Assembly: GCA_017303735.1 (NCBI GenBank)
Contig: JAFLCF010000201.1
Location: 1-7,457 of the forward strand
Source of the DNA: Anaerolineae bacterium
GTDB taxonomy: Bacteria; Chloroflexota; Anaerolineae; Anaerolineales; Villigracilaceae
DNA: 7,457 nt
Direction: 5' to 3'
Shown: positions 3,522 to 6,992 of the stretch, piece after piece
Layout: each line of letters opens with the position of its first letter
How positions within the stretch are numbered: position 1 is the stretch's first letter
Program-made: the position numbers and the translations under genes
Notes under the pieces: generated by a model
Told to the model about the DNA's origin: nothing
The model's input: only the letters and a program-made list of their open reading frames with translations
Database searches by the model: none

Positions 3522-3554
3522 AAATCAAGCCGCCGGTGACGGCGGCTTGATTTT
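3522..3554 (+). terminator. Rho-independent terminator after the ldh-to-secreted-protein run
   Basis: A perfect 14-base-pair stem (3522-3535 with 3540-3553; arm AAATCAAGCCGCCG) closes on a GTGA loop, which fits the stable GNRA tetraloop class. It is followed by T-rich sequence (TTTTATCCTT from 3551). It lies 8 bases after the stop at 3513 and only a few bases before the next promoter, so it separates two transcription units. Confidence 0.9.
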
Positions 3555-3558
3555 ATCC

Positions 3559-3587
3559 TTGACATCCCACAGCCTTAGTCGTATACT
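3559..3587 (+). promoter_or_regulatory. Near-consensus housekeeping promoter of the GbsR-type regulator operon
   Basis: TTGACA (3559-3564) is a perfect -35 box. A 17-base spacer leads to TATACT (3582-3587), one base off the -10 consensus. Transcription should start near 3594-3596. The whole -10 box and the predicted start point lie inside the palindrome at 3579-3618. This is a strong promoter that a bound repressor could shut off. Confidence 0.88.
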
Positions 3588-3618
3588 ACGTTTAGTAATT
3601 ACTAAACGTAGTATACGA
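3579..3618. promoter_or_regulatory. Perfect 40-base palindrome, probable operator for the GbsR-type regulator
   Basis: Two 20-base arms with no spacer: TCGTATACTACGTTTAGTAA followed by its exact reverse complement. It has inner layers: a central TTTAGTAATTACTAAA (3591-3606), a TACTA...TAGTA pair within each arm (3584-3597 and 3600-3613), and GTATAC at each edge (3581-3586, 3611-3616). It covers the -10 box and the expected start point, and its last bases merge into the GAGG ribosome binding site (3617-3620). Most of the left arm would not be transcribed, so a DNA operator is more likely than an RNA hairpin. Binding by the adjacent regulator is inferred from position. Confidence 0.85.
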
Positions 3619-3625
3619 GGCATGC

Positions 3626-4156
3626 ATGGTCACTAAACTTCCGCAACTCAAAAAAGATTTCACTGAAAGCCTGAGTCAGATCAGCCGCTTTTGGGGTTTC
3701 CCCAAAGGTATGGGCGCGATCTTCGCCGTGCTGTATCTCTCCCCTACTCCTCTCGCATTGGATGAGATCACGGCACAAACCGGGCTCACAAAAGGGGCAG
3801 TCAGCACCGAAGTGCGGACCTTGGCGCGCATGGGTTTGGTGCATCGCTCTACAAAACTCGGCGACCGTAAGGATTACTACGAAGCTGAGACCAATTTTTA
3901 CACGTCCATCCGCTCAATTTTGAAGGAACGTCAAAACAGCGAATTCGACCGGGCACTGCGCGGGGTGAGAGAAACGCTCGAGAAACTCGAATCAGGTTCC
4001 GTATCTGGAGATGAGGCGGAGATCGCCATCATCCATGAACGAGTGAAAGCCCTGCAAGATTTCTTCAATGCCATAGACAGCCTGACGAATGCTGTGATTA
4101 AACTCGACAAGTTGGGAATTTCCAACGTCACGAAAATTCTTAATGTATTGAAATAG
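3626..4156 (+). CDS. GbsR/MarR-type winged-helix transcriptional regulator
   Basis: The 176-residue DNA-binding protein matches the GbsR branch of the MarR superfamily. Residues 20-40 (SRFWGFPKGMGAIFAVLYLSP) are the typical opening of that branch. The helix-turn-helix spans about 43-70 (LALDEITAQTGLTKGAVSTEV), followed by a wing with LGDRKDYYEAE (78-88). The C-terminal half (about 93-176) is helical and should mediate dimerisation. Known GbsR proteins repress osmolyte (glycine betaine/choline) genes. Nothing nearby is an osmolyte gene, so that ligand is not implied here. The ATG at 3626 has GAGG 5 bases upstream; the ATG at 3622 is out of frame. The regulator sits directly behind a strong promoter overlaid by a perfect palindrome, so negative autoregulation is likely. 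The stop TAG overlaps the AGGAGA site of the next gene. Confidence 0.88.
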   Translation: MVTKLPQLKKDFTESLSQISRFWGFPKGMGAIFAVLYLSPTPLALDEITAQTGLTKGAVSTEVRTLARMGLVHRSTKLGDRKDYYEAETNFYTSIRSILKERQNSEFDRALRGVRETLEKLESGSVSGDEAEIAIIHERVKALQDFFNAIDSLTNAVIKLDKLGISNVTKILNVLK

Positions 4157-4165: not shown

Positions 4166-4519
4166 ATGAACACCATCATTTCATTTGCACTTCAAATGAT
4201 CTTAACCCTTTTAATTGTTTCTTTTATCGTCGGATATCTGCGCCCATTCTTGAAAAAGATCTTGGTCGACCTGTGCGGCACAGAGGATCGTGCTCAATTT
4301 TGGCTGGTCTTTTCGAATGTGATTCTGATCGGTCTACCTGGCATGATCGCACTAAATTACAGACCAGAAGCAAACTCGTTTGAAGAATTGTTCTTTGAAA
4401 TTGCCGGGAGACTCAGTGGAGCCTTGGGAGGCTTTTTGTTCGCGCTGGTTTGTGTTGGCATGGTCGTTTCTGTGTTCGCTTTATTTGCTCCGCGCCCTGC
4501 AAAATTGGAGGCAAAATGA
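4166..4519 (+). CDS. Small three-helix membrane protein of unknown function
   Basis: The 117-residue product has three hydrophobic segments: about 4-24 (with a following basic patch, RPFLKK 26-31), about 45-64 (WLVFSNVILIGLPGMIAL) and about 80-108 (a Gly/Ala-rich stretch into VCVGMVVSVFALFA). The short acidic loop LCGTEDRAQ (36-44) and the NYRPEANSFEELFFE loop (64-78) would lie between them. The end is basic (RPAKLEAK). I do not recognise a family. It starts 9 bases after the regulator stop, and its own stop overlaps the next start (ATGA, 4516-4519). It is therefore locked between a regulator and an oxidoreductase. A role as a membrane partner, sensor or small transporter for that unit is only inference. 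Confidence 0.8.
   Translation: MNTIISFALQMILTLLIVSFIVGYLRPFLKKILVDLCGTEDRAQFWLVFSNVILIGLPGMIALNYRPEANSFEELFFEIAGRLSGALGGFLFALVCVGMVVSVFALFAPRPAKLEAK
4507..4511 (+). promoter_or_regulatory. Ribosome binding site and ATGA overlap fixing the oxidoreductase start
   Basis: GGAGG ends 4 bases before the ATG at 4516, which overlaps the TGA of the membrane-protein gene. The Rossmann motif begins at once (MKIAVTGA), so this start is preferred over the upstream in-frame TTG at 4450, which would lie deep inside the previous gene. Confidence 0.8.
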
Positions 4520-5424
4520 AGATCGCAGTCACTGGTGCTTTTAGTTACTCTGGCAAATACATCACAAAACGGTTGCTCGAAAAGCGAGAAGAGGTGATAA
4601 CACTCACCAATCATCCCAATCGACCCAACCCGTTCAATGGACAGGTGAAAGCCTTTCCGCTAGATTTTGCCAATGAAGCCGAATTGACCGCGAACCTGCG
4701 CGGCGTGGATGTGCTTGTGAATACCTATTGGGTGCGTTTTGATAAAGGAAGCAATACCCAGCCTCAAGCCGTTGAAAATACAAAGGCGCTGGTTCAGGCT
4801 GCTGTCAAAGCAGGTGTGAAACGCATCGTCCATATCAGCATTGCAAATCCCTCTGCAGATTCGCATCTGCCCTATTACTGGGGCAAAGCAGCCAACGAAA
4901 AAGCCGTGACTGACTCCGGCATGTCGTACGCCATTCTTCGTCCTACCGTGTTGGTAGGCGGCGGGGAAGATATTCTGATCAACAATATTGCTTTTCTGCT
5001 TCGGCGATTACCCATCTTTTTCATCCCAGGCGATGGTTCGTATGGAATCCAGCCGGTGCATGTTGAAGACCTCGCAAGCCTTGCTGTGGAAGGCGTATAC
5101 AGCAAAGAGAGTTATGTGATCGATGCAGTAGGACCCGACTCGTACACCTTCAAAGAACTGGTGAAACTGGTTGGGGATACCATCGGCGCGAAACGACTGT
5201 TGATCTCCATGCCGCCTCGTTTGGCACTGCTAGCAGCTCAATTCCTGAGTCTTTTTGTGAACGATGTGATCTTAACTCCCGAAGAAGTAGACGGACTGAT
5301 GGCAAACCTTTTGGTCTCTAAAGAGCCGGCTCGTGGAAAAACGATGTTCAAAGATTGGTTGTACGAAAACCGTGAGAGCATTGGCACAAAATATGCCTCT
5401 GAGTTAAAGAAACATTACTCGTGA
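4516..5424 (+). CDS. Atypical short-chain dehydrogenase/NmrA-like NAD(P)-binding protein
   Basis: The 302-residue protein has an N-terminal Rossmann fold: KIAVTGAFSYSGKYI (2-16), acidic D50 in the segment after beta-3, DVLVNTYW (65-72), an extended-SDR tail RIVHISIANPS (103-113), Y120-WGK-type Y-x3-K124, and LRPTVLVGGGE (141-151). The C-terminal part contains PVHVEDLA (180-187), as in NmrA-like and complex-I NDUFA9-like atypical SDRs. It probably binds NAD(P)H and either reduces a substrate or senses redox state; the substrate cannot be named. The glycine motif is unusual: the middle Gly of GxxGxxG is Ser10. Residues 227-252 are hydrophobic (MPPRLALLAAQFLSLFV) and could touch the membrane, which would fit coupling to the preceding membrane-protein gene. 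No terminator is visible in the 46 bases before the convergent gene. Confidence 0.87.
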   Translation: MKIAVTGAFSYSGKYITKRLLEKREEVITLTNHPNRPNPFNGQVKAFPLDFANEAELTANLRGVDVLVNTYWVRFDKGSNTQPQAVENTKALVQAAVKAGVKRIVHISIANPSADSHLPYYWGKAANEKAVTDSGMSYAILRPTVLVGGGEDILINNIAFLLRRLPIFFIPGDGSYGIQPVHVEDLASLAVEGVYSKESYVIDAVGPDSYTFKELVKLVGDTIGAKRLLISMPPRLALLAAQFLSLFVNDVILTPEEVDGLMANLLVSKEPARGKTMFKDWLYENRESIGTKYASELKKHYS

Positions 5425-6191: not shown

Positions 6192-6992
6192 CTAAATTAA
6201 GTTAAGGTCAATTTTCAATCCAGCATGCTTCATTTCTTTAGCAATTTGAATTTTCCAAAAACCCGAGTTGTCCCAAGGTACATACAATACCCCATGCACA
6301 TCAGAGGGTAATTCAACACCGTTCTCGTATAAAGCACATACATGGGCGCGCCCCAATTTTCCTAAAAAATAGCCAAGCTCAAAAATAACATTCTGCCTTG
6401 CACGAGGTAATTGCGACTCTTTTGTATCCCTCACCCCTCCAATATCATCGGCGGTTAAAAGGACTATTGCATATCGAACATCTGAAAATGCCTCAAATTT
6501 TTCAATTATTGTCATACCAAAATTCGGTTGTTCGTGAAGTATTATGGCACCCAATCCAAATTTTTCTAAAAAACGAGCAACCTCTTCTTTTAAGGAGTGG
6601 TTTCTTCCATGGACAATAAAAACTTTTTTAGATAGTAGCAATTTATCCTTATTATCTCGAGATAAATTTCCAGAATTCAAGTTATCCTGCCAAGTCTTAA
6701 GCAAACTAAGTAAATGTATTTGTGCACCTCTACTTAGAGATAATCCATCTGTTGATTTCCCGCCTGATTCAATGAACTTCTGGAGGTCATTTACGAATTT
6801 ATTCCCAAAATCTACAAACTCGACAGTATCTAGCCCTATTGATTGCAAATCATCAGTTTGACTTAGAATGCGTCTAATTAATAAGCTTAACGATAGAGTC
6901 TTTTCGGTTGCAGCATCCAAGTCTTCTTTAGAAGAAACAATTCGACACCTCTCACAATCTACTATCCATTCTTGGATAATCTTCGTATTCAT
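6192..6992 (-). CDS. TIR-like (CAP12/PF10137-type) nucleotide-binding protein, probable defence effector
   Basis: The 266-residue protein has a helical N-terminal region (1-115, unknown, with C13-ER-C16) and a C-terminal TIR-like domain (122-245): KKVFIVHGR (122-130), ILHEQPNFGMTIIEKFE (151-167), AIVLLTADDIGG (175-186), RARQNVIFELGYFLGKLGR (197-215) and VELPSDVHGVLYV (226-238). This is the layout of the CAP12 family. Related TIR domains in bacterial TIR-STING proteins degrade NAD+ after a nucleotide signal, and the Glu of their FELG motif is catalytic; E205 occupies that place here. NADase activity is therefore likely but inferred. No cyclase gene is visible, so its trigger is unknown. The gene is much more A+T-rich than its neighbours (three sampled 60-base lines give 16 to 25 G+C), a sign of transfer. 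It follows cca by 28 bases on the same strand. Confidence 0.88.
   Translation of the reverse strand: MNTKIIQEWIVDCERCRIVSSKEDLDAATEKTLSLSLLIRRILSQTDDLQSIGLDTVEFVDFGNKFVNDLQKFIESGGKSTDGLSLSRGAQIHLLSLLKTWQDNLNSGNLSRDNKDKLLLSKKVFIVHGRNHSLKEEVARFLEKFGLGAIILHEQPNFGMTIIEKFEAFSDVRYAIVLLTADDIGGVRDTKESQLPRARQNVIFELGYFLGKLGRAHVCALYENGVELPSDVHGVLYVPWDNSGFWKIQIAKEMKHAGLKIDLNLI

Follow-up and report, generated by a model that had tools for sequence, protein, structure and literature searches.

A perfect 40-bp palindrome at the promoter of a GbsR/MarR-type regulator gene: a probable operator core flanked by a recurrently mirrored -10 box

Introduction

What does a perfect 40-nt palindrome do at the promoter of a regulator gene: is its whole length built for repressor binding, or only a part of it? 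We analyzed such a palindrome in a window of 7,457 nt, the whole stretch of DNA considered here, from a contig of an Anaerolineae bacterium. An earlier note, made from the sequence alone, had read all 40 bp as a design for tight autorepression by the product of the adjacent gene, with room for two dimers side by side or one dimer at the centre.

GbsR of Bacillus subtilis is described as a roadblock: its A/T-rich target, an inverted repeat whose half-sites are separated by 4 bp, lies downstream of the transcription start; gbsR is itself described as autoregulated (PMC7396694). Inducers may differ in GbsR-type proteins that lie outside the osmostress branch (PMC6207618).

Materials and methods

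The first set comprised 80 loci from genome contigs, the best 80 of 130 encoding a relative, or 81 loci with the window. A set enlarged with more distant relatives was reduced from 180 places to 125 loci by identity of a 280-base stretch, and near-identical rows remain among these 125. One locus without upstream DNA (L209) was dropped, followed by three loci with fewer than 11 of 12 core bases (L037, L211 and L212), leaving 121 loci for counts on the arms. The counts leave out ten further loci (L135-L144) as well as L081-L104, which are locus copies. The 68 genomes searched for the core were 66 of the 78 positive genomes from one search and two from another. Most of the named relatives are metagenome-assembled. 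Arm positions are numbered outward from the centre of the palindrome, and the -10 box occupies left positions 12-17.

Results

Architecture of the palindrome

Positions 3579-3618 equal their own reverse complement over 40 nt, in two 20-nt arms without spacer or mismatch (left arm TCGTATACTACGTTTAGTAA, right arm TTACTAAACGTAGTATACGA), just as the earlier note had described. No other perfect palindrome without a spacer has arms exceeding 7 nt in the window. Base composition predicts ~7e-9 such palindromes in a 7.5-kb window and 4.5e-6 in 5 Mb; therefore, the 40-nt palindrome did not arise by chance. As a baseline, inverted repeats with arms of 15 nt or more and a spacer of at most 8 nt number 29 in the 742,933 bases of the 80 loci; 5 of them are at the gbsR operator and 24 elsewhere, several of the latter being terminator-like by eye.

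The palindrome looks like a two-layered structure, with an inner 18-bp core and outer arms that consist of a piece carrying the -10 box and its mirror copy (Table 1). Both the inner TTTAGTAATTACTAAA and the edges reading GTATAC are present as claimed. The promoter had been placed within the left arm; this is correct for the -10 box, but the -35 box lies outside the arm, upstream of it. A perfect TTGACA at 15-19 bp spacing was found in 102 of 121 loci. At its other end, the palindrome reaches the putative ribosome binding site, with the right arm ending within a Shine-Dalgarno-like CGAGG that stops 5 nt before the ATG at 3626. Judged from the position of the -10 box, transcription would start near 3594, so the core would sit on the start point.

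Table 1. Features at and around the palindrome, in window coordinates.
Feature	Position	Strand	Remarks
Intrinsic-terminator-like inverted repeat	3522..3553	+	14-nt arms, 4-nt loop, TTTT at 3551-3554; behind the upstream genes
-35 box TTGACA	3559..3564	+	17-bp spacer to the -10 box
Whole perfect palindrome	3579..3618	.	Folds as ssDNA at -17.2 kcal/mol, z -8.4
-10 box TATACT, in left outer arm	3582..3587	+	
Core operator GTTTAGTAATTACTAAAC, putative one-dimer site	3590..3607	.	Overlaps the predicted start at ~3594
Right outer arm, mirror of the left	3608..3618	.	Mirrored -10 box at 3610-3615; predicted part of the 5' UTR
Shine-Dalgarno-like CGAGG	3616..3620	+	Read from the sequence; overlaps the end of the right arm
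GbsR/MarR-type regulator, 176 aa, putative autorepressor	3626..4156	+	CudC, Mj223 (1ku9) and Foldseek matches
117-aa protein	4166..4519	+	No Pfam or NCBIfam match; composition reads membrane-like; lies between the genes of the regulator and the NmrA-like protein
NAD(P)-binding epimerase/NmrA-like protein	4516..5424	+	Pfam NAD_binding_10, E 1.2e-15

The regulator and its neighbours

The GbsR/MarR type assigned earlier to the adjacent gene is supported by NCBIfam, PDB profile and Foldseek matches. The 176-aa protein matches the NCBIfam model CudC (E 9.1e-20) with 71.2 bits, below the curated equivalog cut-off of 218; its matches to Pfam MarR_2 and MarR are below cut-off, and that to HTH_IclR is just above it (23 vs 22 bits). 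By sequence profile, its PDB match is Mj223 (1ku9; E 1.2e-18). The only solved chains matched by profile, 1ku9 and 5jbr, are also the top Foldseek matches (4.2e-07 and 3.8e-07, respectively, with TM ~0.5 and a large rmsd). The AlphaFold model is of moderate quality (pLDDT 73, pTM 0.52), with the winged-helix order present. Profile and Foldseek thus both point to a winged-helix fold with Mj223 as the closest solved relative, although Mj223 is archaeal and the whole-chain fold match is loose (TM 0.50, rmsd 18 Å). Among the best 120 of 3,194 homologues, those with a name are annotated as GbsR/MarR family or hypothetical protein and come from Anaerolineales and Chloroflexota.

Among the best 80 of 130 loci, relatives of the 117-aa protein were present in 33 and relatives of the NmrA-like protein in 79, the exception (L044) ending 564 bases after the regulator start. 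An NmrA-like protein was also encoded together with GbsR in 30 of 30 loci returned by a promoter-plus-core pattern search. The regulator and the dehydrogenase-like NmrA-like protein (4516-5424) form a conserved gene pair.

Elsewhere in the window, 2014-2946 encodes a FecR-domain protein with a long acidic glycine-rich tail and a start that is lipoprotein-like by eye. The gene at 6192-6992 (minus strand) encodes a TIR-domain protein (Pfam CAP12-PCTIR_TIR, E 1.2e-37; PADLOC candidate PDC-S35, E 2.1e-72) and is likely an anti-phage defence gene; a relative was seen in the fetched DNA of only one locus, L023, among the best 80 of 130.

The core as an autoregulatory operator

Counting the window, 121 of 124 loci have 11 or all 12 bases of TTTAGTnnnnACTAAA upstream of the regulator gene. 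All 12 bases were present in 109 loci, 11 in 12 loci, and 10 or fewer in three (L037, L211 and L212), of which L211 and L212 encode regulators that are only 30% identical. The 121 retained loci extend to a protein identity with the window of ~43%, and in them the aligned start follows the core centre at a distance of 15-75 nt. In the first 81 loci this distance is 22-36 nt, and GTTTAGTA-NN-TACTAAAC is letter-exact in 59, window included, with one of its 16 bases missing in 14 loci and two to four missing in 8.

Genome searches gave the same picture. In 26 genomes of the 80 loci, TTTAGTANNTACTAAA occurred at a single place in 24 and nowhere in 2. A search of 68 genomes with GTTTAGTNNNNACTAAAC found 55 places in 54 genomes, and 54 of these 55 exact 18-bp sites lie less than 100 bp upstream of a gbsR match, the sole extra site being in G612. 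Among the 14 genomes lacking an exact match, three (G010, G020 and G053) have a deviating operator of their own (L028, L056 and L122). The promoter-plus-core pattern matched 28 of 396 genomes of the class, and in each of the 30 loci that it returned, GbsR and an NmrA-like protein are both encoded. By both counts (121/124 loci and 54/55 genomic sites), the promoter of the gene for the regulator itself carries a conserved dyad. The inner TTTAGTAATTACTAAA is distributed as the gene's own operator would be, and we take the inner 18 bp, GTTTAGTAATTACTAAAC, to be very probably the operator through which the adjacent GbsR/MarR-type repressor controls its own gene.

One exact site per genome, beside gbsR, suggests that this operator is probably a single-target switch serving only its own operon. 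Against a single target, three of the seven genomes in a CudC model search have a second, more distant GbsR-type gene, and G612 has its second exact site.

These second genes belong to G020, G276 and G383 (loci L142-L144). The only exact copy of the core away from gbsR among the 54 matching genomes (L214:574-591, in G612) is ~200 bp upstream of a minus-strand ORF and is possibly a chance occurrence. A wider regulon was sought by the exact-site search, which found nothing further beyond this copy.

The core can be compared with two characterized systems. Like the B. subtilis operators of gbsAB and opuB, it is an A/T-rich inverted repeat that would serve an autoregulated GbsR-type repressor, and TTTAGT-4-ACTAAA can be read as half-sites 4 bp apart, a likeness of layout. 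Unlike the roadblock on gbsAB and opuB, the window operator abuts the -10 box, overlaps the predicted start and seemingly serves its own operon only. CydE of Alishewanella, also of the GbsR type, is described as binding at the promoter of its own gene, where one footprinted site contains, in our reading, an 18-bp A/T-rich palindrome, TTTCAGAAATTTCTGAAA; it differs in having two sites of another sequence, in repressing cytochrome bd and in being relieved by sulfate (PMC6096048). The likeness to both sets of sites argues that the core is an ordinary GbsR-type operator, placed differently.

In a minority of loci the right outer arm mirrors the local -10 box

The -10 box reads TATACT in 79 of 121 loci, TATATT in 24 and TATAAT in 11, with TATAGT (4), TACACT (2) and TAAACT (1) as rarer forms. 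On the opposite side, the right arm mostly has some other sequence, the commonest being TTCTAAA (positions 11-17; 46 of 121 loci). The TTCTAAA flank is kept in the distant loci L192 and L195, and also in L070, which has no clear ribosome binding site after it.

The outer arms are mirrored through position 18 in 16 of 121 loci and through position 17 in 17. Scored over positions 10-18, the mirroring has a two-humped distribution: 16 loci are perfect (9/9), one scores 8, four score 7 and 100 score 6 or less. When the right arms were re-dealt among the loci, 10,000 shuffles gave a maximum of 7 perfect loci, as against 16 observed. Such shuffles ignore relatedness, and clade representatives were therefore tested too. 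The right arm matched the representative's own -10 box in 13 of 13, compared with 23% across representatives, and 0 of 100,000 shuffles of 12 representatives reached the observed match.

The 17 loci symmetric over positions 10-17 carry, on both sides, TATACT (8 loci), TATAAT (3), TATAGT (3), TATATT (2) or TACACT (1), and the right arm mirrors the local -10 box exactly for all five of these variants. Position 18 is symmetric in 16 of 17 mirrored loci vs 29 of 104 others, and position 19 in 13 of 17 vs 49 of 104. The mirror is lost by positions 20 (9/17 vs 45/104) and 21 (4/17 vs 24/104). In the first 81 loci the window, L022, L050, L056, L062 and L065 stood out for mirroring, but 630 of 5000 permutations equalled the observed mean mirror score, which is thus not significant; the signal is clear only in the enlarged set and its perfect subset.

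On the regulator tree, the 16 mirrored tips require 13 Fitch changes, counted against all rows, vs 15.3 for random labels, although some of the 13 may be losses, and the window and L022 may share one gain that was lost in L001/L007. The mirrored state is thus scattered on the tree, in ~13 separate places, which suggests that the mirror copy has arisen repeatedly. Three sister pairs retain the mirror, for which selection could also account, and two of these pairs changed both arms together (L125/L126 at position 18, L062/L065 at position 11). Between L053 and L173, the closest pair and one that is suggestive of a single copying event, there are 16 differences from -1400 to +499 around the ATG (the alignment breaks near +540); three of these fall in the 9-nt right outer arm, and the L173 arm is an exact mirror, in a pair that was picked after being noticed and in which L053 could be the derived member.

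Discussion

Proposed template switching seeded by the operator

We consider it likely that the inner 18 bp is a repressor operator and that the 40-bp symmetry is a by-product of template switching. One repressor dimer on 3590-3607 would lie over the start point and next to the -10 box, and so block RNA polymerase at its own operon, which would comprise the repressor, a small membrane-like protein and an NAD(P)-binding protein. The inverted repeat of the operator would also act as a seed: a replicating strand that folds back on it could be copied on itself, in a quasipalindrome-correcting template switch, and the 5' untranslated arm would thereby receive a mirror copy of the arm with the -10 box. 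Copying in the reverse direction would remove the -10 box, and with it the promoter, and would not persist; this may explain why the promoter always occupies the left arm. The copied tract stops approximately where the Shine-Dalgarno region begins, and selection may set this limit.

In the mirrored loci, the arms are reverse-complement identical and their covarying changes are tract-like, as template switching would leave them. Quasipalindrome mutation in Escherichia coli makes an imperfect inverted repeat more perfect (PMC7202029), and, according to another proposal, stems can be created and maintained by template switching, with compensatory changes at several bases (PMC8794818). The cases described there concern reporters, mutation hotspots and RNA genes, whereas here an operator would be the seed and a -10 box would be what is copied. 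Among the open-licence papers listed for template switching, covered mostly as titles and abstract openings, none dealt with the process at repressor operators and we saw no case of operators repeatedly mirroring a promoter element, and the excerpt of a paper on inverted repeats in bacterial genomes (PMC10434271) contained nothing on operators.

Alternative explanations

The strongest alternative is that the 40-bp symmetry was selected for binding, either by two or more dimers or by one dimer with wing contacts, giving tighter autorepression. TACTA/TAGTA pairs are indeed present in the outer arms, the mirror is retained in the three sister pairs, two of them with joint arm changes, and CydE is described as having two sites at the cydE promoter region (PMC6096048). 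We nevertheless regard such a design as unlikely. The right-hand TAGTA occurs in only 10 of 121 loci, and the side pairs, TACTA..TAGTA, are oriented opposite to the TTTAGT..ACTAAA of the core, which argues against the two dimers side by side of the earlier note. The earlier note would count its reading as refuted if close orthologues lacked the palindrome, and this check goes against the full length: mirroring through position 18 is confined to the 16 loci noted above, scattered on the tree, and of the closest orthologues, one with a regulator 90% identical (L022) has the full palindrome and one at 92% (L001) does not. The mirror also tracks the local -10 box, even where this is TACACT or TATAGT, letters for which a protein that reads sequence would have no need. 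Such a protein would call for particular letters and not for whichever ones the local box has; covariation of the two arms requires that they pair or that one is copied from the other; base-for-base copying of five variants is better explained by recurrent template switching than by protein recognition. We do not read the outer arms as additional half-sites for the repressor.

Template switching and function could also be combined, with the mirrored -10 box functional and selected. A symmetric device, either a head-on -10 box or a hairpin, would hold RNA polymerase or the repressor, and template switching would renew it as the -10 box drifts. We judge this combination distinctly improbable.

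Still less probable, in our estimation, is that the mirrored arm acts through DNA or transcription, as a promoter cruciform or as a head-on, opposite-strand -10 box that traps RNA polymerase. The palindrome's ssDNA fold (-17.2 kcal/mol) would suit a cruciform, and arm pairing in DNA is possible; the mirrored hexamer is -10-like on the bottom strand, where one mirrored locus, L206, has a 5/6 match to TTGACA at promoter spacing. However, the mean best bottom-strand -35 match is 2.94/6 in mirrored loci and 2.73 in others, which is background, any -10 variant would suffice without exact copying, and the distribution is patchy. The predicted transcript contains the right half only and has no unusual fold (z +0.9), making arm pairing in its own RNA unlikely.

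Two specific candidates of this kind were tried and rejected. For an RNA hairpin, the predicted transcript begins inside the core, and 167 of 200 shuffles fold as well (z +0.91). For a reverse-strand promoter, a -35 box for the mirrored -10 box was not enriched relative to other loci, the best match being 3/6 in the window and 5/6 in L206.

Chance, by which A/T-rich, -10-like letters would simply have given the operator a lucky flank, is scarcely credible against 16 perfect loci vs at most 7 by shuffling and 13 of 13 hexamers mirrored vs 23% across. In its favour, consensus letters largely account for the symmetry that 74-93% of 121 loci show at positions 14, 15 and 17, no excess appears in the mean score of the first set of 81 loci, and TTCTAAA differs from the mirror of TATACTA at only three positions, which places symmetric states within three substitutions, near by point mutation.

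Implications

The operator itself is ordinary; what stands out is that a promoter element is mirrored recurrently. If this account is correct, repressor operators would not only bind repressors but also seed directed mutation that rewrites their flanks in mirror image, in this instance a -10 box. Relatives would then have to be checked before a long perfect operator palindrome is taken for a binding design, and base covariation, which is commonly accepted as proof of a selected structure, could arise by copying at the DNA level. The gbsR promoter family would provide natural replicates, in ~13 placements, for the origin of such mirrors, their decay and their effect on repression. For Anaerolineales-type bacteria, the operator would represent a probable single-target GbsR-type switch.
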